From Brooklawnia cerclae (GTDB lineage Bacteria; Actinomycetota; Actinomycetes; Propionibacteriales; Propionibacteriaceae), in contig NZ_JAAMOZ010000001.1 in assembly GCF_011758645.1 (NCBI RefSeq), forward strand, positions 2,046,001-2,110,000: 64,000 nt of DNA, given 5' to 3'. The translations under genes and the position numbers were made by a program. Shown one piece after another: positions 9,639 to 63,276 of the stretch (positions are counted from its first letter, which is position 1; each line of letters begins with the position of its first letter). The notes below the pieces were generated by a model. The model was not told the origin of the DNA. It saw nothing but the letters and a program-made list of their open reading frames with translations, and searched no databases.

Positions 9639-10922
<1,284 letters not shown>

Positions 10923-18584: not shown

Positions 18585-18653
18585 CGTCACGTTCCTTCCG
18601 CCGGACGGTGGATCGGAGCACAGCCCCGTCCACCATCCGACTGTCGTTGTTCG

Positions 18654-19610: not shown

Positions 19611-19613
19611 TGC

Positions 19614-20495: not shown

Positions 20496-20533
20496 CTGCC
20501 CTCCTCTTGTCCGGGGTGTGGCCGGTTCACCGG

Positions 20534-21592
20534 TCACTCCCCCTCGATCTGGTTGCAACGGATAAGGACCTTCGGGTACTTGCCGGAGACCTGGGCCTCG
20601 AAGGCCTCCACGGCGTCGTCGAGGTCGAAGACGGCCTCGGTCAGCGCCGCGAGGTCCAGTCGCGGCATCACCTGTGCGGCTCGCGGGTAGGCGTACGGCG
20701 AGATGTACAGGCCGGTGATCGTCAACTCGTTCAGGTAGCAGTACTGGTGGATGTTCAGCGGGAACTCGTAGCCCCCGGGGTACATGGCGGCGAAGATGAG
20801 CCGCCCGCCCCGAGCGGTGATCCGGGGAAGCGGCTGGATTCCGCGAACCGATCCCGAGCAGTCGATGACGACGTCGTAGCCGAGACCGTTGGTCAGCTCC
20901 CGGGCAGTGGCGACGACGTCCTGCGTGGTGGGATCGATGGTGTGGTCGGCCCCGTAGGACGTGGCCAACTCGCGCCGCTCGGCGATGGGCTCGATGAGCG
21001 TCAGGCTCGTGGCACCCATGATCTTGATCAACTGGAGTGTCAGCAGGCCGATCGGGCCCGCGCCGCAGATGGCGACTCGTTCACCGACCCTCGGACGCAC
21101 CTTGTCCATCACCCGCACGGCCACCGACGTGGGCTCCAGCAGGCAGCCGACCCGCAGCGGCACGTCGTCCGGCAGTTTGTAGACCTGGGACTCGTGCCAC
21201 ACGATCGTCTCGGCCATGCCCGGGCGGTTGTACTCCTGGAGGGACTCGCAGAACTGCTGCTGCCCGTTCTGGCAGTAGTAACAGGTGCCGCAGAAGCGGA
21301 CGAAGTTCCCGGCGACGCGGTCGCCGACCTTGAGCCCTTTCTTGGTCGCCTTCGGGCCGAGTTCGGCGATGACACCCGACAGCTCGTGGCCGATGCCGAT
21401 GGGTACGTCGGTTCCGAAGATCCCCTCGACCAGATGGGGGTCGGAGCCGCAGATCGAGCAGTAGGCGACCTTGATCCGGACGTCCTCGTCACCGAGCGGC
21501 TGCTCGGGGATGTCGAGGACGCCGACGGCGCCCCGGGTCTGGGGATCGGGGTCCCTCAGACTGCCGATCTTCACTACGTTGACACACTTCAT
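20534..21592 (-). CDS. zinc-dependent alcohol (polyol) dehydrogenase (cluster 1)
   Basis: This 352-aa medium-chain dehydrogenase has catalytic zinc ligands in CSICGSD and GHE. The structural zinc loop is FCGTCYYCQNGQQQFC with four cysteines, and the NAD-binding motif is GAGPIG. It belongs to the sorbitol/threonine dehydrogenase group and probably oxidises a polyol or sugar to a ketose. Its start overlaps the stop of the transporter gene (ATGA), so they are coupled. It is close to the enzyme at 24794. Confidence 0.88.
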   Translation of the reverse strand: MKCVNVVKIGSLRDPDPQTRGAVGVLDIPEQPLGDEDVRIKVAYCSICGSDPHLVEGIFGTDVPIGIGHELSGVIAELGPKATKKGLKVGDRVAGNFVRFCGTCYYCQNGQQQFCESLQEYNRPGMAETIVWHESQVYKLPDDVPLRVGCLLEPTSVAVRVMDKVRPRVGERVAICGAGPIGLLTLQLIKIMGATSLTLIEPIAERRELATSYGADHTIDPTTQDVVATARELTNGLGYDVVIDCSGSVRGIQPLPRITARGGRLIFAAMYPGGYEFPLNIHQYCYLNELTITGLYISPYAYPRAAQVMPRLDLAALTEAVFDLDDAVEAFEAQVSGKYPKVLIRCNQIEGE

Positions 21593-23175
21593 TTCTGGGA
21601 GTCCTCCGTTGTCTCGCGTTCGTCAGGGGGATCGATTGTCGATAGAGGTGCCGGCTCGGCTCCCCGCTGTGGGGCGTGGTCGTGATTTCGAGCCGCACGC
21701 AGCGCTTCGCCTTCGGCCACGAGCGCGCGTTCCTCGTCGTTCACAGGCTCGACCAGCCCGTCCCTGACCGCGATCTTGTGCTGGATCTCCGCCACCTTCT
21801 CCTCGGAGAGGTCGTAGGAGAGCCCGAAGATGATCAGGGTGACGATGAGGATGCCCGCGGGCAGCCAGGACGACATGAGATGGATGCCGTTCAACGACTG
21901 CTGGGTCTGCTGCGCGACGCCGGGCGCGTAGTCGACCACGTCGAGGATCAGGGTGGGGATGACGCCGCCGAGCAGCATCGAGAACTTGAGCCCCAGCCCG
22001 ATGAGCGTCATGACGATCGCGGTGAGCCGGCGTCCGGTGTGCAGGTCGCCGTATTCGACCGGGTCGGTGATGATCGCCCACAGAACGCCCATCAAGATGC
22101 CGTAGCCGAACGAGCTGACACCGCGGAAGGCCAGCATCAAGACGATGCTCGACGGTGGCAGCAGACCGAGCAGCAAGGCACCGGCGGCACCGATCGCCAG
22201 CCCGAGCAACACGGTGCCCTTCTTGCGTATCCGCTTGACCAGCCACGGAACGATCGGGACGCCGATCACCGACGGCAGCACGTTCATCATCGAGAACCAG
22301 GCGACCATGTCGGGCCGCTGGGCGTAGTAGGTCATGTAGTAGACACCGGACGACGACTGGACGGTGTTGAAGCCGTAGACGCCGAAGAAGAGGAGGAACA
22401 TCATGACCACGTACTTGTTGTGGGTCAGCTGATAGATCACGTCCTTGAATCCCGGCGGATCCTCGTGGGAGGTGACCTTGATCCGCTCCACCACCTGGGT
22501 GGACGCCCAGAACAGCGTGGCGACCATGATGACGGCCAGGAAGACCGTCGTGGTCATGTAGCTGCTCTGCAGGGACAGGAACCTCGACAGCCAGCCGCTG
22601 ACCAGCGGCAGCGCCAGGGCCACGATGACGCCGCCGCTCTGCGCACACATCATGCGGATGCTCTGGAGCTTGGTGCGCTGCGTCGGATCTGCGGTCATCA
22701 CGCTTGCCAGCGAGATGTAGGGGTTGATGATGACCGAGTACAGGATGTTCAACAGGTTGTACGTCACGTACGCCCAGACGATCTTCATCCCGTAGCTGAG
22801 GTCCGGGGTGGTGTAGGTCAGGACGGCCATCAGTCCGAACGGAACCGCACCGAAGACCACCCACGACTTGTACTTGCCCTTGGGCGGATTGGATCGTTCC
22901 GCGATCGTCCCCATCAGCGGATCGGCGAAGGCATCGACGAACCTCGACAGCAAGAACATCAGAGTCACGTCCGCTACCCGCAGTCCGAAGATGTCGGTGT
23001 AGAAGAAAGTGATGTACATCATGATCGCCTGGAACACCAGGTTCATGGCGAAATCGACAGATGAATAGCCGAGTATTTCTCTTGATCTGAGCCGGTAATA
23101 TCCCGGCTCGGCGCCTGACATCTCCCATTTGGATTTGTCTGGAGTGGCAGCCGAAAGCGCATTCTGATAGCTCAC
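21589..23175 (-). CDS. GPH-family (MelB-like) sugar transporter (cluster 1)
   Basis: This 528-aa membrane protein has twelve predicted helices. The N-terminal MFS/GPH signature includes DPLMGTIAERSNPPKGKYKSW, and a longer hydrophilic tail (about residues 470-528) is rich in Glu and Arg. GPH carriers move sugars with H+ or Na+. First gene of the leftward operon, it lies opposite a LacI regulator, which suggests induction by its substrate. Confidence 0.88.
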   Translation of the reverse strand: MSYQNALSAATPDKSKWEMSGAEPGYYRLRSREILGYSSVDFAMNLVFQAIMMYITFFYTDIFGLRVADVTLMFLLSRFVDAFADPLMGTIAERSNPPKGKYKSWVVFGAVPFGLMAVLTYTTPDLSYGMKIVWAYVTYNLLNILYSVIINPYISLASVMTADPTQRTKLQSIRMMCAQSGGVIVALALPLVSGWLSRFLSLQSSYMTTTVFLAVIMVATLFWASTQVVERIKVTSHEDPPGFKDVIYQLTHNKYVVMMFLLFFGVYGFNTVQSSSGVYYMTYYAQRPDMVAWFSMMNVLPSVIGVPIVPWLVKRIRKKGTVLLGLAIGAAGALLLGLLPPSSIVLMLAFRGVSSFGYGILMGVLWAIITDPVEYGDLHTGRRLTAIVMTLIGLGLKFSMLLGGVIPTLILDVVDYAPGVAQQTQQSLNGIHLMSSWLPAGILIVTLIIFGLSYDLSEEKVAEIQHKIAVRDGLVEPVNDEERALVAEGEALRAARNHDHAPQRGAEPAPLSTIDPPDERETTEDSQK

Positions 23176-35988: not shown

Positions 35989-36038
35989 TGGTCGGGGCGA
36001 CAGGACTCGAACCTGCGGTCTCCTGCTCCCAAAGCAGG
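35989..36038 (-). other. attL: 3' fragment of tRNA-Pro(TGG) at the prophage left end
   Basis: Read on the minus strand, CCTGCTTTGGGAGCAGG forms a complete anticodon arm with TGG. It is followed by the T arm GCAGGTTCGAGTCCTGT, the acceptor 3' side and CCA. The D arm and 5' acceptor strand are absent. The integrase starts 48 bp away. The phage therefore integrated into a tRNA-Pro gene, and the restored complete tRNA should lie at the right end, outside the window. Confidence 0.88.
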
Positions 36039-36085: not shown

Positions 36086-37162
36086 TCACCCTTTCAGCAC
36101 CCGCCGATTCATCCGATCGGACACCGCGTCCAGCCCAGAATCCCAGAGGTGACCGTAAACGTCCAGCGTGGTCGTCGCGGACTTGTGCCCCGCCATGCGC
36201 TGCACCGCCTTGACGTCCGCGCCGTCGGCGATCGCCCACGAGATCGCCGTGTGCCGCAGATCGTGGATGCGCAGCTCCGAATCGTCCATGCCGGACGCCT
36301 TGAGCGCCTTCGTCCACGCCCGCGCCCGGAAGGTGTCCTTCCTGATCCTGTGTCCGAGCGGCGTCACGAACAGCGGATCGGTCTTCGGCCTGTCGAGATT
36401 CAGCATTGCCACCACCTTCGCAGGAACGGGCACGTCACGCGGCCTCTCGGACTTCGAGACGACGATTCGAGCCCTCCACACATCTTTTCCCTTGACCTTG
36501 CGCCGCACGACGCTGCCGACGTCGAGCGCCACCACCTCGCCGATGCGCGCTGCGGTGGTCGCCATGAACCAGATCATCGGCGCGTACCAGCCATCTAGCC
36601 GCTTGTCCGCGCGACGGTCCCGCCCCCAACCGTGACAGTTGGACGCGATCGCTCCAACCTGCTCCCGTGTCAGATAGACGGGCTCGTGAGGCTCCTCTGC
36701 CGGAGTCGTCAGGTCGACGCACGGAGAGGTCTCGATGGACTTGCGCCGCACCGCGATGGCCATCGCTCCCCCGAGACACTGCGAGAGCTTGTGCAGCCGG
36801 GACGGCGAGCCCGTCTCCGCGTTGAGCCATGCCTGGACGGCGGACTGCTCCACATCGGCCACCAGCATGCTCCCCCACCTGCTGCGGACGGCGCGAGCAG
36901 CGTCCCTCGCAGCCTCGACGCTCTTCGGCGCGAGGCTCCGTTTGGACTCCAGCCACAGGTCGATCATGTCGCCCACGGTGTCGCTGGACTTCGGCGTCGG
37001 CGGCCCGTCGGCGATCCGCCGGGCGTTGACGTACTCCGCCTCCCTGTAGGTGCGGTGCGACGTGTCTCGGTAGCCCTCGACGCGCACGCGGTACCGCATG
37101 CCCCGGCCGTGACGCTTGGTCGGAGTGCCGTCCTTGCGTGTCCACAGGTCGTCGATGGCCAT
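36086..37162 (-). CDS. int: phage tyrosine integrase
   Basis: This 358-aa tyrosine recombinase has an N-terminal arm-binding domain, a SAM-like core-binding domain (about 60-150) and a catalytic domain. Catalytic residues are visible in TAARIGEV (Arg), HDLRHT (His-x-x-Arg), the GHKS segment (His) and LDVYGH (Tyr nucleophile). It lies next to the tRNA-Pro attachment site and drives integration and, with an excision factor, excision. Confidence 0.96.
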   Translation of the reverse strand: MAIDDLWTRKDGTPTKRHGRGMRYRVRVEGYRDTSHRTYREAEYVNARRIADGPPTPKSSDTVGDMIDLWLESKRSLAPKSVEAARDAARAVRSRWGSMLVADVEQSAVQAWLNAETGSPSRLHKLSQCLGGAMAIAVRRKSIETSPCVDLTTPAEEPHEPVYLTREQVGAIASNCHGWGRDRRADKRLDGWYAPMIWFMATTAARIGEVVALDVGSVVRRKVKGKDVWRARIVVSKSERPRDVPVPAKVVAMLNLDRPKTDPLFVTPLGHRIRKDTFRARAWTKALKASGMDDSELRIHDLRHTAISWAIADGADVKAVQRMAGHKSATTTLDVYGHLWDSGLDAVSDRMNRRVLKG

Positions 37163-39509: not shown

Positions 39510-39793
39510 GCATGACGCCCGGCTACGGGCACTGAACTTTCGCGGCCTGGCAGGGCTAGGCAAGGCGTGGCACGGCAGGGCACGGCAGGGCAAGGCATGG
39601 CATGGAAGGTCGCCAGAGCGGCACACTCCGGGGTTCGGGTCCCCGGCTGGCACTGTCCTGGGCATGGCACGCCAGGGCTGGCCCCGGCAGCGGCTCGGCT
39701 GGCCGCCGCAGGGCGAGGCAAGGCAAGGCAAGGAACCAAACGAAGGCCCGGCGCTCGCAACGCCGGGCCTTCACATTGTCGAAAGGAAACCCC
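39510..39793 (+). other. gene-free region with GGCA-type low complexity and a strong hairpin
   Basis: About 60 bases from 39548 consist of GGCAx units in tandem (GGCACGGCAGGGCACGGCAG and similar), and again near 39715-39735. A tRNA T-arm-like hairpin CGGGG-TTCGGGT-CCCCG is at 39629-39645, preceded by a D-arm-like GCCAGAGCGGC. A perfect 12-bp stem follows: GAAGGCCCGGCG (39742-39753) with its complement at 39761-39772. It lies just before the next ribosome site and may be a terminator or attenuator. Confidence 0.6.
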
Positions 39794-40371: not shown

Positions 40372-40989
40372 ATGCCCCCATTCGAGCCCCTCGGCGAGTT
40401 CTCGCGCCGCAATCTCGCTCTCGGCGTCCTGCGCGGGCACGCGACCGGCGATGTGGTCGGCTACGACGAGTTCGGAGACGCTCTCGACCTGCATCCAGAT
40501 GTCAACCGCAAAGTCATTCAGGACGCCGTCCGAGCAGCCGGTACCGAGTTCTTGGATGTGGACAGGCAGGCGCTGGAGGCCGTGCCGAACGTCGGCTACC
40601 GCATTGTCCCAGCGAGCGAGCACGTGCGGCTTGCGCGTGGCTTGCAGCGCCAATCGTCACGCGCGCTGGTTCGCGGGCACACAGTCGTTGCGAAGGTCGA
40701 CTACAACGCGCTGAGCCCGGAGGTCCGCGCGCTCACCGAAGCCACCGCGCGGGCGTTCGCCGCGCAGATCGAGTTCAACCGCCGCATGGACGTGCGGCAA
40801 CAGCGCCTCGAAGAGGCCGTGGCAACGGTCGCCACCAAGCAAGAGCGATCGGACGACGAAGTTGCCGAGCTGCGCGAGCGGCTCGCGCGACTGGAGGCAT
40901 CCATCGCGGGAGAACAGGAGCATAGCAATGACACTCATCCCATTCGACTACAGCGGCCAGCAGGTCCGCGTCATCAATCTCCACGGTGA
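40372..40989 (+). CDS. phage protein with winged-helix-like N-terminus and coiled coil
   Basis: This 205-aa protein has an N-terminal part (residues 1-85) that looks like a small nucleic-acid-binding domain, then a long helical coiled coil (about 115-185). A GAGGGAGG site supports the ATG at 40372 over the GTG at 40366. Its end overlaps the antirepressor gene by 62 bases in another frame. No known family. Confidence 0.55.
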   Translation: MPPFEPLGEFSRRNLALGVLRGHATGDVVGYDEFGDALDLHPDVNRKVIQDAVRAAGTEFLDVDRQALEAVPNVGYRIVPASEHVRLARGLQRQSSRALVRGHTVVAKVDYNALSPEVRALTEATARAFAAQIEFNRRMDVRQQRLEEAVATVATKQERSDDEVAELRERLARLEASIAGEQEHSNDTHPIRLQRPAGPRHQSPR

Positions 40990-41752
40990 GCCCTGGTTCG
41001 TCGCCAAGGACGTGTGCGAGATCCTTGACATCCGCACCGATACGTTGCGGTACATCCTCGACTCTGACGAGGTGCGAAGCATCAACCCCAACAGTATTGG
41101 GGTTGCTCAGACGGGCGGCAAGGACCCGCTCATTGTGTCCGAGCCTGGCGCATACAGTCTCATTGCTCGCAGCCGCAAGCCAGAGGCCAAGCCGTTCAAG
41201 CGCTGGGTCAACCACGAGGTGCTCCCCTCGATCCGCCGGACCGGCTCATACGGCACGCCCGCGCTGTCCGAGGACGAGATCGTGCACCAGGCGCTCGCGA
41301 TCACAGCCAAGCGGGTCGAGGCCTTGACCGCCACCGTCGAGCACCAGGAACGGCGTCTGCGCCTCGTCGAGCCGAAGGCCGCCGCGTTCGACCGGTGGCT
41401 GTCGTCGAACGTCAACTACGCGGTCGACCGGGTCGCGAAAGCGCTCCGGGCCGCAGGTGCTATCACCGGCCGCAATCGCCTGCTCGACCACATGGGCACG
41501 CGGAAGAAGGACGGCGGGCTGGAGTGGATCTTCCGCGACGCCCGTGGGCAGTGGACGCCGTTCCAGGCGCAGGTCGAGTGTGGACGCCTCGCCGTGAAGT
41601 TCGGCAGCTACGAGGACTCGAAGACCGGCGAGCAGGTAGGCACCACGACCGTGCGCATCACCCCGAAGGGAGCGGCGAGGCTCGCCGCCGTCTACAACGT
41701 CTCGCCCGAAACCATCGCCGACGAGCTCGAAAGGGACGCCGATGCTGCCTGA
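40928..41752 (+). CDS. phage antirepressor (Bro-N plus KilA-C)
   Basis: This 274-aa protein has an N-terminal Bro-N domain (VINLHGEPWFVAKDVCEIL) and a C-terminal KilA-C-type domain with LLDHMGTRKKDGGLEWIF and TTVRITPKGAARLA. Such proteins disable the repressor or bind DNA during lytic growth. The ATG at 40928 follows a GGGAGAACAGGAG leader. It supplies a second input to the lysogeny decision besides ImmA. Confidence 0.88.
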   Translation: MTLIPFDYSGQQVRVINLHGEPWFVAKDVCEILDIRTDTLRYILDSDEVRSINPNSIGVAQTGGKDPLIVSEPGAYSLIARSRKPEAKPFKRWVNHEVLPSIRRTGSYGTPALSEDEIVHQALAITAKRVEALTATVEHQERRLRLVEPKAAAFDRWLSSNVNYAVDRVAKALRAAGAITGRNRLLDHMGTRKKDGGLEWIFRDARGQWTPFQAQVECGRLAVKFGSYEDSKTGEQVGTTTVRITPKGAARLAAVYNVSPETIADELERDADAA

Positions 41753-41993
41753 ACGCCTGGACCTGACCGGATTCGCCGAGATCCCCGGCGATCCCGCCTA
41801 CCGCATCCACCCCGACGGCAGGGTGGCCAGCCTCAAGAAGACGCTTCCCGCAGTGCTCACCGAGCGCAGGGCGTCCAATCCGAGACTGTCCACCGTCCGC
41901 CTCGGCGGCGTCGACGTGCGAGTCCGCGACCTGCTCGTCGCCGTCTTCGGGACCGCCCACGACTACTACGAACGGATCGAGGACTGGTCATGA
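41742..41993 (+). CDS. small phage protein with NUMOD4-like segment
   Basis: This 83-aa protein contains EIPGDPAYRIHPDGRVASLKK, similar to NUMOD4 motifs found in homing-type HNH nucleases. No nuclease domain follows, so it may be a stand-alone DNA-binding module. It overlaps the antirepressor gene and the next gene. Confidence 0.55.
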   Translation: MLPERLDLTGFAEIPGDPAYRIHPDGRVASLKKTLPAVLTERRASNPRLSTVRLGGVDVRVRDLLVAVFGTAHDYYERIEDWS

Positions 41994-42732: not shown

Positions 42733-43607
42733 GCACCCTCATCGACGCGCCGGGCGTCTACGACGGCCTGGACGAGGAGGTCTACCACGCCGATCCGGTG
42801 CCGTCCGGCTCTCTGTCGTGCACGTGGGCCAAGCAGATCGTCAAGCCCGGCGGCCCGGCGAAGTGGAAGTGGGACTGCGAGCACCCCCGCCCGCCAAAGA
42901 AGGAGTTCGACCTCGGGCACGCCGCTCACAAGCTCGTCCTGGGCGTCGGCGCGCCTCTCACCGTGATCCCCTACGACGAGTGGCGCACCAAGGAGGTGAA
43001 GGCGGAGGTCGCCGAAGCTCGCGCGCGCGGAGAGATCCCCCTCAAGCCCGCCGAGTACGAGCAGGTGCAGCGGATGGCCGAGCAGATCGCCGCGCACCAG
43101 CTGGCCATGAGCCTGCTCGACGGAGCGCGGCATGAGGTGTCGGCGTTCCGTGTGGACGAGCAGACCGGGGTGTGGCTCCGGTGCCGGTGGGACTCGATCA
43201 AGGCGGACGGGATCGCCGACTACAAGACCGCCGTCTCCGCCGACCCGGCAGAGTTCGCCCGGCAGGCCGTCAAGCTCGGCTACCACCAGCAGGACGCGTG
43301 GTACTGCGACATGGCGCGCGCCCACGGCGTCACCGATGGGCCTTTCCGGTTCATCGTCCAGGAGAAGGCGGCTCCGTACCTGGTGTCCGTGATCGAGCTC
43401 GACGAGGACACCGAGCGGCTCGGCAGGCGCATGAATCGCCAAGCCATCGACACCTACGCCAACTGCCGGGCCACCGACCAGTGGCCCGGCTATCCGCCGG
43501 TCGTGAACATCGTCTCCGCTCCGCCATGGGCCTTCGAGACTCCCGACACGCTCGACCCCGACACCGAACAAGAACTCCTTGACCTTTTGGAGGGACCCCA
43601 GTCATGA
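42729..43607 (+). CDS. RecE-like PD-(D/E)XK exonuclease
   Basis: This 292-aa protein matches phage exodeoxyribonuclease VIII-like (DUF3799/PDDEXK) enzymes. The start VYHADPVPSGSLSCTWAKQI and the block DLGHAAHKLVLG are typical. WDSIKADGIADYKTA carries the metal-binding Asp and the catalytic D-x-K. It chews one strand of duplex DNA so that RecT can anneal the other. Its stop overlaps the recT start. Confidence 0.85.
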   Translation: MSTLIDAPGVYDGLDEEVYHADPVPSGSLSCTWAKQIVKPGGPAKWKWDCEHPRPPKKEFDLGHAAHKLVLGVGAPLTVIPYDEWRTKEVKAEVAEARARGEIPLKPAEYEQVQRMAEQIAAHQLAMSLLDGARHEVSAFRVDEQTGVWLRCRWDSIKADGIADYKTAVSADPAEFARQAVKLGYHQQDAWYCDMARAHGVTDGPFRFIVQEKAAPYLVSVIELDEDTERLGRRMNRQAIDTYANCRATDQWPGYPPVVNIVSAPPWAFETPDTLDPDTEQELLDLLEGPQS

Positions 43608-45165: not shown

Positions 45166-45368
45166 CCCGCCTGCCCCTCCGCCCCAGCGACCGCCCCACG
45201 CCACCCCCGGCGTGGGGCGCACTGTTCCCGGGCCTGGCGGTCCTCGCCGTGGCCTCTGCCGTCCTGGGCCTGCACGGCCTCACCGTGGCCGCGTGTGTGG
45301 CTCTCATCCTCGCTGCCAGCCTGCACGGGCTGGCGACTGATCCCCGAACCGAAAGGACCCCGAAGTGA
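45162..45368 (+). CDS. small phage membrane protein
   Basis: This 68-aa protein has two hydrophobic helices (about 18-36 and 39-57) and charged ends. It overlaps its neighbours on both sides by four bases. Unknown function. Confidence 0.5.
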   Translation: MTRLPLRPSDRPTPPPAWGALFPGLAVLAVASAVLGLHGLTVAACVALILAASLHGLATDPRTERTPK

Positions 45369-46384
45369 AGGCCTACAAGGGATTTTCTAAAGACATGACG
45401 TGCCGTGGCTTCCAGTACGCAGAGGGCGAGACTTACACCACCGACCGCGCCGTCCTGTGCGAGACCGGCTTCCACGCCTGCCCGGAGCCGCTGGACGTGC
45501 TGGGCTTCTACAAGCCGGGAAAGAGCGTCTATCACGAGGTCGAGCTGGGTGACGACGCCAAGCTGGATGGCAGCAAGGCCGTCTCGACGGCGATTTACAT
45601 CGGCGCGAAGATCAGCATCGCCGGACTCGTGAAGGCGCACATCGATATCGCGTGGAAGCGGGCGAACAAAGAGCCCAAGAATACGACCTCGGGCTACTAC
45701 TCGACGGCTGCGACCTCGGGCTACTCCTCGACGGCTGCGACCTCGGGCAACGACTCGACGGCTGCGACCTCGGGCAACGACTCGACGGCTGCGACCTCGG
45801 GCCACTCCTCGACGGCTGCGACCTCGGGCAACGACTCGACGGCTGCGACCTCGGGCAACGACTCGACGGCTGCGACCTCGGGCTACTACTCGACGGCTGC
45901 GACCTCGGGCAACTCCTCGACGGCTGCGACCTCGGGCTACTACTCGACGGCTGCGACCTCGGGCTACTACTCGACGGCTGCGACCTCGGGCCACTACTCG
46001 ACGGCTGCGACCTCGGGCTACTCCTCGACGGCTGCGGCCTCGGGCTACTACTCGACTGCTGCGGCCTCGGGCTACTCCTCGACGGCTGCGACCTCGGGCT
46101 ACTCCTCGACGGCTGCGACCTCGGGCAACGACTCGACGGCTGCGACCTCGGGCCACTACTCGACTGCTGCGACCTCGGGCGATGAGTCTGTCGCCGTCGC
46201 CGCCGGATACCAGTGCTCGGCCAAAGGCACGGCAGGAAACTGGCTCGTGCTCGTCGAACGCGACACCACGGGCCACATCCTCGGCGTCGTGTCGGTCAAG
46301 ATCGGCTCCAAACGCAAAGGCAAGCGGATCAAGCCCGACACCGCATACATGCTCGTCGGCGGAGAGCTGGTGGAGCGGCCATGA
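45365..46384 (+). CDS. DUF7666-type protein with 18 nine-residue repeats
   Basis: This 339-aa protein has three parts. Residues 1-109 (KAYKGFSKDMTCRGFQYAEG) match the DUF7666 type of phage protein. Residues 110-271 are 18 units of GxxSTAATS. The C-terminal part AGYQCSAKGTAGNWLVLVER closes the repeat stack. The repeat resembles a beta-solenoid with Tyr/Asn/His at the variable spots. It probably forms a rigid rod or binding surface. Function unknown; the repeats are nearly identical at DNA level. Confidence 0.75.
   Translation: MKAYKGFSKDMTCRGFQYAEGETYTTDRAVLCETGFHACPEPLDVLGFYKPGKSVYHEVELGDDAKLDGSKAVSTAIYIGAKISIAGLVKAHIDIAWKRANKEPKNTTSGYYSTAATSGYSSTAATSGNDSTAATSGNDSTAATSGHSSTAATSGNDSTAATSGNDSTAATSGYYSTAATSGNSSTAATSGYYSTAATSGYYSTAATSGHYSTAATSGYSSTAAASGYYSTAAASGYSSTAATSGYSSTAATSGNDSTAATSGHYSTAATSGDESVAVAAGYQCSAKGTAGNWLVLVERDTTGHILGVVSVKIGSKRKGKRIKPDTAYMLVGGELVERP
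45692..46177 (+). repeat. 18 tandem copies of a 27-bp repeat
   Basis: The unit is GGCTACTACTCGACGGCTGC followed by GACCTCG. Copies differ mainly at the two codons after GGC (TAC TAC, TAC TCC, AAC GAC, CAC TAC and so on), while the silent positions of the rest stay the same. This points to recent expansion by slippage or recombination. Units 13 and 14 carry GCC in place of ACC. Confidence 0.95.
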
Positions 46385-47685: not shown

Positions 47686-47906
47686 GCTACTACACGCCGA
47701 CCGACGATGAGATCCGGGCGTCCACGACGAGGCTCGGCGCATGGAGCGGGGACGCCTACGACCGGTGGCTGGCCGCCCACGACGCTGCACTACGGAAGTC
47801 GATCGCGGCGGCCATCGAGGACTGCAACGACCACTGCCACGACCAATGGGACGAAGCGATCACCCTCGCCGCCAGCATCGCTAGGGGTGAGCCGCCGACC
47901 ACATGA
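47670..47906 (+). CDS. small phage protein (78 aa)
   Basis: The ATG at 47670 follows AAGGAGG. The 78-aa product is helical with many Asp and His residues (IEDCNDHCHDQWDEAI). Its stop overlaps the ATG of the DUF4406-like remnant. Unknown function. Confidence 0.5.
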   Translation: MADYVSYYTPTDDEIRASTTRLGAWSGDAYDRWLAAHDAALRKSIAAAIEDCNDHCHDQWDEAITLAASIARGEPPTT

Positions 47907-47992
47907 TCACCTACATCGCAGGACCCATGACAGGCCTCCCGGACCTCAACCGGGAGGCCTTTTTCGTGGCCGACCAGAGAAAGGAGACAAGC
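47903..47992 (+). pseudogene. 5' remnant of a DUF4406-like (deoxyribosyltransferase-related) gene
   Basis: The first 30 codons read MITYIAGPMTGLPDLNREAF, the typical start of phage DUF4406 proteins, but then run in frame into the Cas6e-like gene. The rest of a DUF4406 domain is missing. This suggests that the CRISPR-like cassette replaced or interrupted such a gene. A translational fusion adding 30 residues to Cas6e is the alternative. Confidence 0.55.
47933..47964 (+). terminator. intrinsic terminator at the left edge of the type IV cassette
   Basis: GGCCTCCCGG (47933-47942) and CCGGGAGGCC (47950-47959) form a perfect 10-bp stem with a 7-nt loop, followed by TTTTT. It lies 29 bp before the Cas6e start, which would set the cassette apart from upstream transcription. 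Confidence 0.8.
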
Positions 47993-48589
47993 GTGGACGG
48001 CATCGTCCTGACAAGACTGTCCCTCACGCCACAAGGCATGCGCGTGCCGATCAGGGAATGGCACACCGTCATCGCCACCTCATCGAAGAACACGTCCGGG
48101 GACAGAGCACTGTGGGCGTGGCCCGACCGGGCCACCATCCTCGTGCAATCCCCGGCGCCGGGCATGCTCACCGACATGCTCACCGGCCTGGCGACCGTCA
48201 CAGCCAGCGAGCCACGCCGCACCGCGTTCCCGGCCGGGGCCAGAGTCCGGGTGTCCGGGCTCCTCAACCCGACGAAGACGAAGTGGGTGTACAACGACGA
48301 GCGCGTCCGGGTGAAGATGGCGCGCGGGCTGGTTCCCGAGAGTGAGTGGCCCGAGTGGGTTGCTGCTCGTCTCGATGGGGCACTGTCCGGGCTCGACGTC
48401 ACCTGCCAGCGACTGCCCACGGTGCGGGCCGTCAAGCCGGGCCACGTCATCACCATGGCCAGGATGGCGTTCAGCGGCACCGCCACCGTGGATGACCCGG
48501 TCGTCCTCGACCGCCTGATCCGCGCCGGTATCGGCAAGGAGAAGGCGTACGGGTGCGGCCTGATCCTGGTCGACGGGGTGACGCCATGA
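47993..48589 (+). CDS. Cas6e-like CRISPR RNA endoribonuclease
   Basis: This 198-aa protein follows the CasE/Cas6e plan: VLTRLSLTPQG at the N-terminus, a candidate catalytic His24 in REWHTVIA, LVQSPAP, RVSGLLNPTKTKW, and the C-terminal glycine-rich loop GIGKEKAYGCG (179-189) before GLILV. In type I-E, Cas6e cuts the repeat hairpin to make guide RNAs. The GTG at 47993 follows AGAAAGGAGA at good spacing. It overlaps the next gene by four bases. Classic type IV-B loci usually have no Cas6. Confidence 0.88.
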   Translation: MDGIVLTRLSLTPQGMRVPIREWHTVIATSSKNTSGDRALWAWPDRATILVQSPAPGMLTDMLTGLATVTASEPRRTAFPAGARVRVSGLLNPTKTKWVYNDERVRVKMARGLVPESEWPEWVAARLDGALSGLDVTCQRLPTVRAVKPGHVITMARMAFSGTATVDDPVVLDRLIRAGIGKEKAYGCGLILVDGVTP

Positions 48590-49347
48590 CCGAGACCTCG
48601 TCCACACGGCTCGTCTGGGATCTGGCCGGGCGACCGCGGATCACCGCACCGGGGACGGCCGCACACCTCAAGGACTCCCCGGGCGTGTGCGCGATGTGCG
48701 GCCACGACTCGCCGGTCACAGCGAACGCGGACCGGGCGCTCGGGAAGAACTTCTCCGACCAGGGGCATCTCCAGCGCCACGACAGCCCGGACATCTGCCC
48801 GGCATGCCTGTGGTGCGCATCTGGCAAGCCGCCGAACACGCTTCGGATGTGGACGATCGTCGCCTCACCTGGAGCCGATCTCCCGGACTCGCAGCCCAAG
48901 GCGTTCCTCCAGGACACTCCCGGGCTGTGCCTCACCTCACGGGCCAGCACGCGGCCGGTCATCGACATACTGGCCGACCCGCCGTCCGGGGACTGGCTCG
49001 TCTCTGTGGCGCTGTCCGGGCAGAAGCATGTGCTGCCGTTCGCTGCGGTCAACCACGGCAGCGGACAGTGGACGGTGCGGGTCGAGGACCACAGCGTCAC
49101 CGCCACCCCGGCCCAATGGCGCCAGGTCCACGCCTGCACCCTCGGCCTGCGCAGACTCGGCGTCCCAGCCGAGGCCGTCATGGCCGGGGAACCCCAGTAC
49201 GTCAAGACCCCCGACCAGCTCGCCGCATGGCGGGACCTCAACGCCGGGCTGCTGCCGTGGCTCGGCTCACCACTCCTGGAGCTCGCGCTCTGGACGATCA
49301 CGAAGGACATCACCAATGACACAGCCACTTACCCTGCTGACCGCTGA
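48586..49347 (+). CDS. csf1: Csf1-like zinc protein (type IV large-subunit analogue)
   Basis: This 253-aa protein has a four-cysteine zinc site, C35-x2-C38 (CAMCGH) and C71-x2-C74 (CPACLWC), separated by about 32 residues. This is the signature of Csf1, the reduced Cas8-like subunit of type IV. The assignment rests on this motif, the size and the gene order (cas6-csf1-cas11-csf2-csf3). The remainder is mixed alpha/beta. The end overlaps cas11 by 32 bases. Confidence 0.75.
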   Translation: MTETSSTRLVWDLAGRPRITAPGTAAHLKDSPGVCAMCGHDSPVTANADRALGKNFSDQGHLQRHDSPDICPACLWCASGKPPNTLRMWTIVASPGADLPDSQPKAFLQDTPGLCLTSRASTRPVIDILADPPSGDWLVSVALSGQKHVLPFAAVNHGSGQWTVRVEDHSVTATPAQWRQVHACTLGLRRLGVPAEAVMAGEPQYVKTPDQLAAWRDLNAGLLPWLGSPLLELALWTITKDITNDTATYPADR

Positions 49348-49720
49348 CGACCTCGACGACATCACCGTCGACCTGGTCTTTGCCCTGCGCGACTCCCTCA
49401 CCGAGGATGTGTCCCGCCTCGACTTCTGGCAGGGACGCGCAGCCACCGCCATCGAGACCGCAGCCGCCGGTGGAGAGGCGTGGCCCCAGGCTGTCACGAT
49501 CGCCGCCCGCAAGCTCCAGATCCCCCAGCTCGCGCTGGAGGCATCCAAGACCATCACCAAGCTCGGCGGGCGCATCGAGGGCCACTACAGCCAGTGGCAG
49601 GCCCACGTTGCCCGCAACCTCGTCTACATCGTCGCCCTGGCCAGAGTCGAGAACACCAGCCGCAAAACCCCCAAGCCCGACCCCGAACCGACCACCGACA
49701 CCGAAGAGGCAATCTTCTGA
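49316..49720 (+). CDS. cas11: Cas11-like small subunit
   Basis: This 134-aa, almost wholly helical protein has four to five helices (DDLDDITVDLVFALRDSL; WPQAVTIAARKLQIPQLALE; YSQWQAHVARNLVYIVALAR) and a disordered Pro/Thr/Glu tail. Small subunits are very variable, so this call leans on position between csf1 and csf2. In the known IV-B complex, Cas11 lines the Cas7 filament. Confidence 0.65.
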   Translation: MTQPLTLLTADDLDDITVDLVFALRDSLTEDVSRLDFWQGRAATAIETAAAGGEAWPQAVTIAARKLQIPQLALEASKTITKLGGRIEGHYSQWQAHVARNLVYIVALARVENTSRKTPKPDPEPTTDTEEAIF

Positions 49721-50598
49721 TGACCACCACCATCATCCCTGCCCAGCAGGAGACCATCAACTACACCGCCACACTGCTGTCGCCGTTCCACCACGGTGCC
49801 GGGAACTCCGGAAACACCGCCCTTCTGCGCACCCAGGACGTCGCCCAGCCCGACGGGACGGTCGCCCAGGTGCCGTTCCTGTCGGCCGCCTCCATCCGCC
49901 ACGCCCTGCGCGACCGGATCGCCTGGCATCTCGTGTCCACCCTCGACCTGCGCCCGCCGGCGGTCGTGTGGTCGAAGCTCGGCGTCGATCTGCTGTGGAC
50001 CGGCGGGTCAGTCACCTCCACCGGCGCTGAGGTCGACCTCGGCATGGCCCGGCGTGTTGAGGAGGTCTTCCCGGCGCTCGCCCTGTTCGGGTACTCGGCG
50101 CACTCCGACATCGTGTCCGGGACGCTGCGGGCCTCCGACGCCATCCTGGTGTGCCGGGAAAACCAGTGGCGGATCCCTGGAGCGCCGGACACCAAGCCCG
50201 CCGCAGCATGGCGGGGCGAGGAGTTCGGCACCCGCCACGACGTGGCATCCACGCCCGTCGCCACCCTGCTGGAGCAGGCCGACACCCTGCTCGGCTCCAC
50301 CGTGAAGACCACCCAGATGATCTTCGACACCCAGGTGCTCATCGCCGGGGCGTCGCTGTCGGGACAACTCGCCCTCCAGCACGGAGCCACCGCCGCACAC
50401 CGCACGGTCCTGGGTGCCGCGCTCGCACTGTGGGCCCCCGGCGGCGAGGCGCTCCTCGGCGCCAAGACCGCCCAGGGATACGGCCGGGCTGCCATCGCCG
50501 GGCTGCCCGATACCAGCGCCGACCTGGCGGCGTGGACCGCCCACATCGCCGACCGGCGTGACGACATCCTCCAGCTGGTCGAGGACCTCACGAGATGA
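49720..50598 (+). CDS. csf2: Csf2, Cas7-like backbone protein of type IV
   Basis: This 292-aa RAMP protein has the Cas7 start LLSPFHHGAGN (20-29) and the PFLSAASIRHALRD block (52-65), equivalent to the IPGSSLRGALR motif of Cas7/Csm3. Next come ALFGYSAHSDIVSGTLRAS and a C-terminal glycine-rich stretch, GGEALLGAKTAQGYGRA. It should polymerise along a guide RNA. Its ATG shares a base with the cas11 stop. It is the clearest Cas gene in the locus with Cas6e. Confidence 0.85.
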   Translation: MTTTIIPAQQETINYTATLLSPFHHGAGNSGNTALLRTQDVAQPDGTVAQVPFLSAASIRHALRDRIAWHLVSTLDLRPPAVVWSKLGVDLLWTGGSVTSTGAEVDLGMARRVEEVFPALALFGYSAHSDIVSGTLRASDAILVCRENQWRIPGAPDTKPAAAWRGEEFGTRHDVASTPVATLLEQADTLLGSTVKTTQMIFDTQVLIAGASLSGQLALQHGATAAHRTVLGAALALWAPGGEALLGAKTAQGYGRAAIAGLPDTSADLAAWTAHIADRRDDILQLVEDLTR

Positions 50599-51221
50599 GC
50601 GAGGCCCAGCCGATGGCCATCACCGCGTTCCTCACGAGCGCGGTGGTGGGCCTGGAGCGCGGCGTCATTCTCGACGGCCCGCTGTCGTACACGTGGGCGG
50701 CTCTGGCGGCTGCGTCGGGCCGCCCCCTGCCTCCGATCCGGGACGACTTCGTTGCTCCCATCCCGATGCCGTTCCGGCGGTGGGAGATGGGGGGCACATG
50801 GGGGTGGTGCTGCTCGAAGGGCACCGAGCACATCCTCAAGTGGACCGCCGTCGAGGTCCGCCGCAAGCCCGCCACCGACGCCATGGCCATCTTCACCGAC
50901 CTCGCGAAGCATCACGCCGGACTCGGCCCGACCAAGGCCCGCAACACGACCCTGTCGGCCCGGATCGCCACAACGATCCGCTGGGACGCGCTGGTCACCG
51001 ACCAGGCCGAGCTGCACCGGCTGCTGGCGGCGACCACCAACATTTCCGCCCGCCACCGCAACGGGTTCGGGCAGGTGGTCAAGTGGCTCGTCGAGCCGTC
51101 CCACGATACGGACGGATGGCGCAGACGGCCCCTGCCCGCACCGGGCGGGGAGATGCTGCCCGTCCGCCCGCCCTACTGGCACCGCACCACCTGGGCGCCC
51201 TGCGAAAGCCCTGCGGCATGA
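50595..51221 (+). CDS. csf3: Csf3, Cas5-like protein of type IV
   Basis: This 208-aa protein starts with the Csf3-like motif GVILDGPLSYTWAALAA (23-39), followed by PIPMPFRRWE. It ends with a glycine loop, RHRNGFGQVVKWLVE (153-167). Csf3 caps the guide RNA 5' handle. It overlaps csf2 by four bases. Confidence 0.8.
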   Translation: MSEAQPMAITAFLTSAVVGLERGVILDGPLSYTWAALAAASGRPLPPIRDDFVAPIPMPFRRWEMGGTWGWCCSKGTEHILKWTAVEVRRKPATDAMAIFTDLAKHHAGLGPTKARNTTLSARIATTIRWDALVTDQAELHRLLAATTNISARHRNGFGQVVKWLVEPSHDTDGWRRRPLPAPGGEMLPVRPPYWHRTTWAPCESPAA

Positions 51222-51454
51222 CCGTCCGCCAGCAGATATGGGACTGGCTGCCCGCACGCCGGGACCGGCGCCGCACCACCGTCGCGCCGGTGATCGCCGC
51301 CGAACTCGGCCTGCCGGTCAGCCTCGTGGCCGCCACCCTCCTCGACATGGAGCGTGGCGGCCACGTCGTCCACGACCGGCGTGGCTCCTGGCACCGGGGC
51401 GTGCCGCTCACCAAACCAGCACCAGACCAACCGGAGGAGGGATTGTGGGACTGA
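51218..51454 (+). CDS. winged-helix DNA-binding protein within the type IV cassette
   Basis: This 78-aa basic protein starts MTVRQQIWDWLPARRDRRRT and has a winged-helix pattern (VAPVIAAELGLPVSLVAATLLDMERGG and a GSWHRG wing). It lies between csf3 and the CysH-like gene, with overlaps on both sides. It could regulate the cassette or be an accessory subunit. No standard type IV name applies. Confidence 0.6.
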   Translation: MTVRQQIWDWLPARRDRRRTTVAPVIAAELGLPVSLVAATLLDMERGGHVVHDRRGSWHRGVPLTKPAPDQPEEGLWD

Positions 51455-52215
51455 TCGACTCGCCAAGATTCAAGCCCCAAGACCTCGCAGCGTGGAAGAA
51501 GCTCGAACGCTACGACGCGGCATTCTCGGCTTTGCCGTCATGGGCCGGGCGCGAAGAAAGAGCCCGTAAGACGATACGAGATTTCGCGTCGGCGGGCGGA
51601 TGTTACGCGTCGACGTCTTGGGGGAAAGACTCGACATGTGTCGCATTTCTGGTGGCAACCAGCGGCGTAAGGTTACCGCTGGTCTATGTGCGTATGCGGG
51701 CCTGGGAATCTCCGGAATGCCTCCAGGTCAGAGACGCGTTCTTGGCACGATACGGCGACGCGGTCGACTATCACGAATACGTCGTGGACGGCGGCATCCG
51801 CTGGTGGCAGACCGCCGAGGCGTCAGCCTTGAAAAGGCGCAGTGGTTCCCATGTCGGCGGCCAGTTCTCCGAGCCGGAGGGCGAGTTCGGGGCTCGGCAT
51901 ATCACCGGAATACGGGCCGAAGAATCGGATATCCGCGACCTCGTCGTCAGGCGGTGGGGCGAGGCCGGGCCGAATGCTTGCCGTCCCATAGCGCGCTGGA
52001 CCGCAATCGATGTGTTCGCGTTCCTGCACCGTCACGACCTGCCTATCCATCCTGCCTATGCCATGAGTTTCGGCGGGCTCATGGATCGGCGATGGCTCCG
52101 AGTTTCCCCCATCGGCGGAATCAGCGCAGCGCACAAGAAGCGCGCCGACTGGGAATCCGCCTACTACCCCGACATCGTGCGCAAAACCCCCGAAGAGATC
52201 GGAGACATGTCATGA
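51445..52215 (+). CDS. CysH-like (PAPS reductase family) protein of the type IV-B cassette
   Basis: This 256-aa PP-loop ATPase-superfamily protein has the STSWGKDS motif (56-63), GIRAEESDIRD and ARWTAIDVFAFLHRHDLP, all typical of the CysH fold. The Cys-rich ends of assimilatory sulfonucleotide reductases (ECGLH or CCxxRK types) are not evident. Type IV-B loci nearly always carry such a gene, with unknown function. The GTG at 51445 follows GGAGGAGGG. Confidence 0.85.
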   Translation: MGLIDSPRFKPQDLAAWKKLERYDAAFSALPSWAGREERARKTIRDFASAGGCYASTSWGKDSTCVAFLVATSGVRLPLVYVRMRAWESPECLQVRDAFLARYGDAVDYHEYVVDGGIRWWQTAEASALKRRSGSHVGGQFSEPEGEFGARHITGIRAEESDIRDLVVRRWGEAGPNACRPIARWTAIDVFAFLHRHDLPIHPAYAMSFGGLMDRRWLRVSPIGGISAAHKKRADWESAYYPDIVRKTPEEIGDMS

Positions 52216-59700: not shown

Positions 59701-59946
59701 GTGAGCGCTGAGACCAAGGCCCGCCTGCAAGAGGCGATCCACGAGCACATGGCCGACGAGTACGACGCCCAGTGCGTCGGGGCATGGCTGGTCATCGCGG
59801 ACACCTCCGACGTCGACGACCTCACCAAGGGCAACGCCCAGGTGCAGATCGAGTTCGCCGGATCGATGTTCACCATCCGGGGGCTCGCCGAGGCCTACCG
59901 CGCGCTCGACGACCGGACCTGGAACCAGCCCGACCCGGACGACTGA
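59701..59946 (+). CDS. small phage protein (81 aa)
   Basis: This 81-aa protein starts with a GTG after AGGAGG. It has a helical start (AETKARLQEAIHEHMADEYD) and a following beta sheet. Unknown function. Confidence 0.55.
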   Translation: MSAETKARLQEAIHEHMADEYDAQCVGAWLVIADTSDVDDLTKGNAQVQIEFAGSMFTIRGLAEAYRALDDRTWNQPDPDD

Positions 59947-60296: not shown

Positions 60297-61781
60297 GTGT
60301 CGATCCCCTCGGCCACCGCCGACGCCATGCTCGGCATGCTCGACGCGGCCCAGCACGCCGACGCCCTCACCCCCGGTCAGATCGCCACGCTCATCGACCC
60401 CCGCACCGTGCAGACTCCGGCACTCGACCTCATCGACGCCGAGCTGGATCGGCTGCTCGCCACACCTGACGGGCGGCTCGGGATCTCGATGCCGCCGCAG
60501 GAAGGCAAGACAACTCGCGTCGTCCGCGACTTCGTCATCCGCGCACTGGAGCGCAACCCCGACACCCGCGTCGTCGCCGGCGCCTACAACCAGAGCCTCG
60601 CCAACCGCAACGGCCTGATGATCCGCCGTGCTATCAGCTCGGTGCCTCAACTCGGGCTCGCGATCTCCCGCGACAACGGCTCCAAGCACGAGTGGGAGCT
60701 GGAGGGCCATCGCGGCGGCGTCCTGTCTGTCGGACGCGGCGCCGGTGTCGACGGTCGGCCAGCCGACATGATCGTCATCGACGATCCGGTGAGCCGCACC
60801 GAGGCCGACTCGGAGCTGGCCCGCGACGACTGCTGGGACTGGTGGACCGAGTCGCTGTCCGCCCGCCTCGCCCCCGGCGCACCCGTCGTCGTCATCATGA
60901 CCCGCTGGCATGAGGACGACCTCATCGGCCGCCTGGTCGAGCGCGACACGCACGCGGGCTGGCGCATCGTCAACATCCCCGCCCAGTGCGAGGACCCGGC
61001 CACCGACCCGCTCGGACGCCAGGCGGGCGAGTACATGATCTCCGCCCGGCGCAACAGGGACGGCACGCCCCGCACCCGCGAGCAGTGGGAGAGCAGGAAG
61101 CGCACCGTCGGGTCGCGCGTCTGGAGTGCCATGTACCAGGGCCACCCGAGCCCGGCCGAAGGCGGACTGCTCAAGCGGGACTGGTGGAAGCGCTACTTCA
61201 CCCCGCTGTGGACGACCCGGGACGACGGGTCGTGCTGGGCGATCGGCTTCGACGAGCTGCTTATCTCCGCAGACCTCGCGTTCAAGGGCACAACCACCTC
61301 CGACTATGTCGCGATCGGCGTGTGGGGCAGGCGCGTGAATGACGCCTACCTCCTCGACCAGGTCCGCGAACAGCTCGATTTCGTCGGCACGCTGCACCAC
61401 CTGGTCGCCCTGTGCGCCAAATGGCCACAGGCGACCCTCAAGCTCGTCGAGGACAAAGCCAACGGTCCGGCGCTCATCTCGATGCTGGCCAAGCGGATCG
61501 TCGGAATCGTCCCCATCAACCCGACCGCCGGGAAGGTGCAGCGCGCCGAAGCGTGGGCGCCACTGGCCGAGTCCGGGCACGTGTGGCTGCCGTCCGACGA
61601 GATCGCTCCATGGGTCGGCGACTACATCGAAGAGCTGGCCGGATTCCCGAACGCGGCCCACGACGACCAGGTCGACCAGACGTCGATGGCTCTCGACCGG
61701 ATGATCCTGCGCCCACTGCTCGACGAGGGCCGCGAGATCGACGCGACCGACGACTACGACGACTACCGGATCGGGTACTGA
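60297..61781 (+). CDS. terL: terminase large subunit
   Basis: This 494-aa packaging motor has an N-terminal ATPase with a Walker-A-like PPQEGKT (66-72) and Walker B MIVIDDP (158-164), and a C-terminal RNase-H-like nuclease with acidic residues in ISADLAFKGTT and AAHDDQVDQ. It cuts and pumps DNA into the prohead. The GTG at 60297 follows GGGAGGTG. It lies directly before the portal gene. Confidence 0.95.
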   Translation: MSIPSATADAMLGMLDAAQHADALTPGQIATLIDPRTVQTPALDLIDAELDRLLATPDGRLGISMPPQEGKTTRVVRDFVIRALERNPDTRVVAGAYNQSLANRNGLMIRRAISSVPQLGLAISRDNGSKHEWELEGHRGGVLSVGRGAGVDGRPADMIVIDDPVSRTEADSELARDDCWDWWTESLSARLAPGAPVVVIMTRWHEDDLIGRLVERDTHAGWRIVNIPAQCEDPATDPLGRQAGEYMISARRNRDGTPRTREQWESRKRTVGSRVWSAMYQGHPSPAEGGLLKRDWWKRYFTPLWTTRDDGSCWAIGFDELLISADLAFKGTTTSDYVAIGVWGRRVNDAYLLDQVREQLDFVGTLHHLVALCAKWPQATLKLVEDKANGPALISMLAKRIVGIVPINPTAGKVQRAEAWAPLAESGHVWLPSDEIAPWVGDYIEELAGFPNAAHDDQVDQTSMALDRMILRPLLDEGREIDATDDYDDYRIGY

Positions 61782-61791
61782 GGAGGGCGGA

Positions 61792-63276
61792 ATGGCGAAG
61801 CACGCAAATCAGTCCCCCACCCTGGACGACCTCGCCGCAGGCTACGAGTCGACGATCGCCGTCCTCCAGGAATCCCTGGCCGATGTGCAGCGCGTCATGG
61901 ACCGCGACAATCTCGGCTGGATGGAGCTGTCCGTCCTCAACGACGGCGGCTTCGACGCCGACTTCCGCCGTAGGCAGGCGGCACGCATCCTCGTCGCCGC
62001 CACCGCGAACCCGATCATCAAGCGCGGCCTCGCGCTGCGCGGGGCGTTCGTGTGGGGCGGCGGGGCGGCCATCACCGTCCGCGACACTCCAGACCAGGGG
62101 CAGGACGTCGGAGCCGTCGTGCAGGCGTTCCTCGACGACCCGCAGAACCTCCCCGTGATCGTCGACACCGACGCCCGCATCGGGCTCGAACGCGACCTCG
62201 GGATCGTCGGTGAGGTCGTGCTGTGCCTGCCGACCGATCCGGTCACCGGACGCGTCCGCGTCCGCAAGATCAAGCCCGACCAGATCACCGGCATCCGGGT
62301 CGACCCCGAGGACGACGCCGCCGAGCAGCTGTATCTTCGCCAGTGGTCCACCGCGGGCACCGCCCAGCCGATGAAGGCATGGTACCCGGCGATCAACTAC
62401 CATCCGTCCCAGCAGCCCGGCGAGATCGATGGCGCACCGGTCATGTGGGACCAGCCGATCAGATTCGTCCGTGTGAATCAGGTGGGAGACCGTGGCGTCG
62501 GCGACGCGTTCGCCGCCGTGCCGTGGGCCGACGCCTACAAGCGCTTCCTGGAGGACTGGGCGCAACTCATGCGCTCACTGTCCCGCATCGCCGTCCAGCT
62601 CCGCACCCGGGGCGACAAGACCGCGCAGGCTGCCGCCCGCCTCGCCAGATCCGCGCAGGGCGACGCCGGGCAGGGTGTAGCCCTCGACCCGACCAGCCAG
62701 CTCGAAGCCGTCTCCACCTCAGGTGCCCGGTTCGACGCCGACTCCGGCCGCCCGCTCGCGGTTATGGCTGCCGCAGCCCTCGACCTGCCTGTCACCACGC
62801 TGCTCGGCGATCCTGGCGTCACCGGTGCCCGGGCGGTTGCCGAGCAGGTGTCCGACGACTCCTGGGCGGCGTTCGACGTGCGCCGCGACCTGTGGCGCAA
62901 CGTCCTGCGCGACATCTGCGGATACGTCATCGACTCAGCGGTGACCGCGCCTGCGGGACCGCTGCGCGGCACCGTCACCCGTGACGGGGACCGCCAGCGC
63001 ATCGAGCTTCCCGACGGCGACGGGTGCACCGTCGAGATCGAGTTCCCGAAGCGGGTCAGCGATTCGGTCCTTGACCGCATGAAGGCGATCCAGATCGCCG
63101 GACAGTCCGAGACGCTGCCGCCGCTGCACGAGCTGCGCATGTACCTCCAGGCCCTGGACGTCAAGGACGCCGACGAGATCATCGACGCCGTCACCGACGA
63201 GGACGGGAACTTCATCCCCCTCGACGTGCTCGACTCCCGCGTCCGCCAGATGATGACCGAGCGGGGCGAAGCGTGA
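61792..63276 (+). CDS. phage portal protein
   Basis: This 494-aa protein lies between terL and the head morphogenesis gene, the usual portal slot. It has a wing-like N-terminus, LARSAQGDAGQGVALDP and a conserved GDPGVTGARAVAEQVSDDSW block before the C-terminal helices. Portal rings form the DNA entry and exit gate. The call combines location and motif pattern. Confidence 0.8.
   Translation: MAKHANQSPTLDDLAAGYESTIAVLQESLADVQRVMDRDNLGWMELSVLNDGGFDADFRRRQAARILVAATANPIIKRGLALRGAFVWGGGAAITVRDTPDQGQDVGAVVQAFLDDPQNLPVIVDTDARIGLERDLGIVGEVVLCLPTDPVTGRVRVRKIKPDQITGIRVDPEDDAAEQLYLRQWSTAGTAQPMKAWYPAINYHPSQQPGEIDGAPVMWDQPIRFVRVNQVGDRGVGDAFAAVPWADAYKRFLEDWAQLMRSLSRIAVQLRTRGDKTAQAAARLARSAQGDAGQGVALDPTSQLEAVSTSGARFDADSGRPLAVMAAAALDLPVTTLLGDPGVTGARAVAEQVSDDSWAAFDVRRDLWRNVLRDICGYVIDSAVTAPAGPLRGTVTRDGDRQRIELPDGDGCTVEIEFPKRVSDSVLDRMKAIQIAGQSETLPPLHELRMYLQALDVKDADEIIDAVTDEDGNFIPLDVLDSRVRQMMTERGEA

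Follow-up and report, generated by a model that had tools for sequence, protein, structure and literature searches.

A prophage-borne variant of type IV-B CRISPR with its own Cas6e in Brooklawnia cerclae, a candidate anti-CRISPR against host type I-E

Type IV-B is a branch of the clustered regularly interspaced short palindromic repeats (CRISPR) systems whose function has been called unknown, with sponging of CRISPR RNA (crRNA) or small RNA as a hypothesis only (PMC8175902, PMC7937560). IV-B complexes produced recombinantly take up small RNAs and show no preference for their sequence (PMC7937560). Phage-borne CRISPR components that may interfere with host crRNA have been described in other forms, namely RNA anti-CRISPRs (Racr) and phage Cas9 lacking RuvC, which may sequester crRNA (reviewed in PMC11656645). 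Here we describe a cassette of seven genes at positions 47993-52215 of a 64,000-nucleotide stretch of the Brooklawnia cerclae genome (contig NZ_JAAMOZ010000001.1, positions 2,046,001 to 2,110,000). This whole stretch is called the window, and coordinates without a contig label refer to it. The cassette lies in an integrated prophage. It is a genuine type IV-B variant, distinguished by its Cas6e, and it recurs on other prophages. It may act as an anti-CRISPR that the phage builds from Cas proteins and directs at the host type I-E system, a reading that we hold about equally likely to be right or wrong. The genes of the cassette form one operon as follows.

47993-48589, + strand: cas6e, type I-E-type crRNA endoribonuclease, 198 aa (PF08798 7.5e-18; PADLOC Cas6e 1.3e-21)
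48586-49347, + strand: csf1, type IV Cas8-like large subunit with a four-cysteine region (Csf1_0_IV 1.6e-36)
49316-49720, + strand: cas11, type IV small subunit (PDLC01187 2.5e-44)
49720-50598, + strand: csf2, type IV-B Cas7 backbone (profile 1.6e-93; homologous to the solved IV-B Csf2, PDB 7jhy)
50595-51221, + strand: csf3, type IV Cas5 (profile 9.2e-26)
51218-51454, + strand: small winged-helix-like protein, 78 aa (homologues conserved in relatives)
51445-52215, + strand: cysH-like PP-loop ATPase with an SWGKDS motif and without the C-terminal ECG motif (PAPS_reduct 3.6e-8)

All seven open reading frames (ORFs) are free of internal stops, and each overlaps the next by a few bases, so that by anatomy they make one transcription unit. 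The original prediction, made from the letters of the window, had read the same seven genes at this place, and the ORFs and profile matches agree with it. Its identification of Cas6e, Csf1, Cas11, Cas7/Csf2, Cas5/Csf3 and a CysH-like protein is borne out by the significant matches listed above. For the winged-helix protein, the gene and its conservation hold; family profile searches with the 78-aa product gave no significant match. With regard to classification, csf1-cas11-csf2-csf3 stand in one operon with a cysH-like gene and without a CRISPR array, and profile searches gave no match to DinG, Cas1 or Cas2 among the seven products, as is the case for IV-B. Type IV-B is, however, also described as lacking a crRNA-processing enzyme (PMC8175902), and Cas6e is present here. 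The cassette is therefore a variant of IV-B, not a typical member. The original prediction was right to read it as an effector resembling type IV-B to which a Cas6e is added. The DinG helicase and own CRISPR array of type IV-A are both absent, and there is no operon of Cas3, Cse1, Cse2, Cas7e and Cas5e as in type I-E; only the Cas6e is I-E-like.

The AlphaFold model of the phage Cas6e (pLDDT 91) has the fold of Cas6e/Cse3, as predicted, and its top structure matches are only Cas6e/Cse3 and other Cas6-type proteins (4dzd, E 1.2e-12). A profile built from phage Cas6e alone matches Cse3 structures as well (9e-14). His24 aligns with the catalytic His26 of Thermus thermophilus Cse3, and a C-terminal glycine-rich loop is found as GIGxxKAYGCGL, so that the fold, the position of the catalytic His and the loop of a Cas6e are all present. 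Phage Cas6e and the hosts' own Cas6e are about 22% identical, and in a tree the phage proteins form one group apart from those of the hosts (support 100/100). This separation indicates that Cas6e travels with the cassette, and recent capture from the host's own I-E was rejected on this ground.

The host carries what such a Cas6e could act on. B. cerclae possesses a complete type I-E operon (cas3, cse1, cse2, cas7, cas5, cas6e, cas1 and cas2), which is followed by an array of 169 repeats and 167 spacers (G000:C1:2496461-2506777). Ten of these spacers match the prophage of the window (contig C1) over 33/33 nucleotides, each with an adjacent 5'-AA as the protospacer-adjacent motif (PAM), where the frequency of AA is 2%. 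All ten are among the 20 most leader-proximal spacers of the 167 (p 5e-11). Their targets are the following.

36306-36338, - strand: protospacer of host spacer 19 (33/33, PAM GAA)
39537-39569, + strand: protospacer of host spacer 20 (33/33, PAM GAA)
40413-40445, + strand: protospacer of host spacer 17 (33/33, PAM CAA)
41162-41194, - strand: protospacer of host spacer 11 (33/33, PAM GAA)
41837-41869, + strand: protospacer of host spacer 16 (33/33, PAM CAA)
43569-43601, + strand: protospacer of host spacer 13 (33/33, PAM GAA)
59731-59763, + strand: protospacer of host spacer 12 (33/33, PAM CAA)
63084-63116, + strand: protospacer of host spacer 10 (33/33, PAM GAA)
68763 and 68938: protospacers of host spacers 1 and 2, beyond the window and inside the prophage

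Chance matching was considered and rejected, since reversed or shuffled spacers gave 0 matches, as did 400 kb of other chromosome. A broken host I-E was likewise rejected: all eight genes are full length, and the HD, Walker A and DEVH motifs of Cas3 are intact in B. cerclae, as they are in Cutibacterium porci and Phytoactinopolyspora limicola. The imperfectly matching host spacers 121 and 96 target csf1 and cas11 themselves. A second cassette-bearing prophage of B. cerclae, on contig C3, contains one perfect and several near-perfect host-spacer targets. Older spacers of the array match this C3 prophage imperfectly and so record that related phages were met repeatedly.

The same pattern was found in two further hosts. 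C. porci WCA-380-WT-3A, which belongs to the same family as B. cerclae, has a complete I-E (Cas2 not being among the queries), and its spacer 3 matches 33/33, with PAM TAA, at C12:80317 within a cassette-bearing IMG/VR provirus (computed span ~60468-123408). P. limicola also has a complete I-E; three perfect spacers and two with 1 mismatch, all with an AA PAM, target C1:63410-84526 of that genome, within its IMG/VR provirus (computed span ~35791-96940). Thus, all three cassette-bearing hosts tested combine a complete I-E with perfect AA-PAM spacers against the prophage that carries the cassette (10, 1 and 3), and this tolerated self-targeting is the genomic signature of an anti-CRISPR. As background, 43 of 198 genomes in the host's family have I-E. 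For IV-B without Cas6, six of eight host genomes have no PF08798 protein, and in the other two no spacer matches the IV-B contigs with 2 or fewer mismatches. The contrast in I-E association between the Cas6e cassette and Cas6-less IV-B (3/3 versus 2/8, Fisher p ~0.06, hand-computed) is suggestive only.

The second B. cerclae prophage, C. porci, P. limicola and at least 14 IMG/VR viral contigs carry the same cas6e-csf1-cas11-csf2-csf3-cysH cassette. The Csf2 clade is present in 18 IMG/VR contigs, a set that takes in the proviruses of P. limicola (L065) and C. porci (L067); Cas6e lies beside Csf1 in 14 of them, the contig end cuts the locus in 2, and none was detected in the remaining 2. When all ORFs of five elements were compared, the cassette genes were the only ones common to all, with the Cas6e of C. 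porci linked by tblastn and via L001, a 20.9 kb piece only. Among structural genes, similarity is weak and confined to subsets of the elements. The cassette is conserved across different phage backbones. A scan of genome contigs with a single Csf2 sequence gave no match and one with a CysH alignment gave two; a Streptomycetaceae-like sample of 395 genomes contained only distant Csf2, and a search of the family of P. limicola yielded P. limicola alone. Neither the B. cerclae prophage nor any searched cassette locus contains a CRISPR array, while a control array was detected, and a guide array or mini-array of the phage's own was rejected on this ground. A single mimic of the host repeat in the manner of Racr was also rejected, as the best match has 8-9 mismatches and equals that of shuffled repeats. 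Plasmid origin of the clade was rejected too, because a search of 72,556 plasmid records for its Csf1 gave no match. Skermania phage SPI1 (KR011061, L027) has an unannotated IV-B operon without detectable cas6e at 18367-22500; a short partial duplicate of csf1, 73% identical, lies at 18176-18322 of this phage. No published account of a prophage with Cas6e-bearing IV-B came up in our literature search, which did not cover PMC7038947, the main survey of type IV, so that an earlier mention is possible.

Perfect self-targeting should be lethal as long as nothing inhibits I-E; the cassette, the sole gene set present in all five elements compared, is a candidate for the inhibitor. A phage without guides of its own in hosts whose I-E holds self-targeting spacers in 3/3 cases points to counter-defence against I-E first. 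In the proposed mechanism, phage Cas6e would bind, and probably cleave, the repeat hairpins of host I-E pre-crRNA. Around the captured crRNA, Csf2, Cas11, Csf3 and Csf1 would form a complex for which no effector nuclease is known. This would keep host crRNAs away from Cascade-Cas3, and the prophage would survive in a cell whose array targets it. CRISPR-associated transposons (CASTs) set a precedent for obtaining host crRNA by way of Cas6 (reviewed in PMC11656645). From gene content and genome context, we infer that the cassette binds and sequesters host crRNA and so inhibits I-E; the addition of an I-E-type Cas6e would be what gives the IV-B complex access to this RNA. A decoy that withdraws crRNA is the simplest reading of the cassette.

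Several points weigh against such a decoy. The hosts number only three, and the I-E association stands at p ~0.06. Self-targeting has been reported in ~7-18% of CRISPR-bearing genomes (review PMC6990116) and is not rare enough for proof. In C. porci, a single additional G within a G run (L022 ~10450-10470) shifts the reading frame of csf2, be it a true mutation, phase variation or an assembly error. Since phage and host Cas6e are only ~22% identical, recognition of the host repeat is presumed. The tested plasmid IV-B complex did not enrich co-expressed I-E crRNAs (PMC7937560); unlike the phage cassette, that complex had no Cas6e of its own, and a dedicated Cas6e would be expected to change this outcome. 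Finally, self-targeting may be tolerated through an unrelated small anti-CRISPR (Acr) in each prophage or through a silent I-E, with the cassette doing something else. Small Acrs are common in prophages, genomes with self-targeting were the starting point for finding Acrs in Listeria and Moraxella (reviewed in PMC6990116) as well as in Xanthomonas albilineans (PMC10810201), and the csf2 frameshift would fit. Against this, the cassette genes alone occur in all five elements, and an array-less Cas6e in hosts that all have I-E would be left unexplained. We consider this explanation somewhat unlikely while giving it serious weight.

Capture of host I-E crRNAs could also serve offence. The IV-B complex would then bind and silence the DNA or RNA of further phages or of plasmids in superinfection exclusion, like plasmid IV-A with its own guides. 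IV-A acts by repressing transcription of its targets and does not cleave them, and CASTs are able to take up host crRNAs by means of Cas6 (both reviewed in PMC11656645). Of the 167 spacers in the host array, several partly match related prophages. This use is nevertheless unlikely, as the host I-E already owns these guides plus a nuclease, and survival under self-targeting would not follow unless host crRNAs were also withdrawn, which is the decoy again. The least probable of the readings weighed here has nothing to do with host CRISPR: the complex would modify nucleic acids or regulate RNA, and the CysH-like ATPase, together with a DNA methyltransferase in relatives, would act on bound RNA or DNA. 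The CysH-like protein has the fold of a PP-loop enzyme and comes closest to CysH; its SWGKDS motif is conserved with invariant residues, and the C-terminal ECG motif is missing. Several relatives have a DNA methyltransferase, D12 or N6/N4, between csf3 and cysH. In or directly after the cassette, the type is D12 in L061 and L063 and N6/N4 in L062, L064, L066 and L075, and a DNA methyltransferase follows cysH in L022 and L048 (Pfam was run on the genes of L061, L062, L064, L022 and L048). These embedded enzymes may hint at crRNA-linked DNA modification, and plasmid IV-B loads non-CRISPR RNA (PMC7937560). Such a complex would explain neither the retention of an I-E-type Cas6e with its catalytic His nor the self-targeting in 3/3 hosts. 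The function offered in the original prediction, either attack on competing phages and plasmids or regulation by RNA binding, is possible and is not the best-supported reading.

A further, improbable extension joins several of these elements. IV-B loaded with self-targeting host crRNAs might bind the prophage's own protospacers and shield them from Cascade, by occupancy or by CysH-linked modification (in relatives perhaps methyltransferase-linked), while silencing related superinfecting phages. If this were true, host immune memory would guide the protection of the very phage that it targets.

The prophage that carries the cassette spans 35990-85232 (49.2 kb), is of the tailed type and is integrated in tRNA-Pro. 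The setting in an integrated tailed phage, as originally proposed, is supported by its integrase, RecE/RecT, terminase, portal and 49-bp att repeat. Its landmarks in the window are the following.

35990-36038, no strand: attL, 49-bp direct repeat (partner attR 85184-85232, beyond the window; the repeat is the 3' end of tRNA-Pro)
36086-37162, - strand: prophage tyrosine integrase (PF00589 1.5e-17)
60297-61781, + strand: terminase large subunit (portal protein next, 61792-63276)

Other prophage genes encode RecE-like and RecT-like proteins, RusA, a replication initiator, an amidase and a holin. Just upstream of the cassette, a gene at 45365-46384 has many 9-residue repeats (S-G-x-x-S-T-A-A-T), which are coding, though they resemble a tandem array. 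The start of cas6e is GTG 47993, preceded by AAAGGAG, and an alternative in-frame ATG at 47903 would add a DUF4406-like remnant; we infer that the GTG is the real start. This remnant (47903-47992), the in-frame start of a DUF4406 gene, is found in both B. cerclae prophages and possibly marks the insertion point of the cassette. The second copy lies in another phage-like region (C3:225971-230289, L015/L016). The two copies have 90% nucleotide identity over the cassette in largely different surroundings, and csf1-cas11-csf2 are 99-100% identical as against 81% for csf3 and 74% for cysH, an unevenness suggesting recombination inside the cassette. The 78-aa winged-helix-like gene is kept in L001 and C. 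porci and has an HTH_3 protein in its place in P. limicola. In L062 (11423-12208), it is fused to a longer N-terminal domain, 261 aa in total, with no Pfam match.

A recurrent cassette of Cas6e and IV-B on prophages of self-targeting I-E hosts is a concrete and testable candidate for IV-B sponging, and host I-E crRNA would supply the missing source of guides for an array-less Cas complex. Among known systems, the cassette is like the IV-B Csf complex of Mycobacterium sp. JS623 (PDB 7jhy; PMC7937560, PMC8175902) in its csf1, cas11, csf2, csf3 and cysH-like genes and in the lack of DinG and array, and its Csf2 clade profile matches the JS623 structure (7jhy, E 4.3e-14). It differs from typical IV-B, described without a crRNA-processing enzyme (PMC8175902), by Cas6e, and from the JS623 type by its place on prophages, with Csf1 matching 0/72,556 plasmid records. 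Phage Cas6e resembles Cas6e/Cse3 of type I-E in T. thermophilus and Escherichia coli in fold, catalytic His position and glycine-rich loop, whereas neither Cascade genes nor an array stand alongside it, and its ~22% identity and separate tree group set it apart from the hosts' Cas6e. Skermania phage SPI1 also bears csf1-cas11-csf2-csf3 with a cysH-like gene, without detectable cas6e and with a Csf2 only ~30% identical. Like Racr and the RuvC-less phage Cas9 (PMC11656645), the cassette is proposed to capture host crRNA or Cas parts non-productively by a phage CRISPR component; unlike them, it would do so not with a single host-like repeat unit but with a multi-subunit Class 1 complex and a Cas6e of its own.

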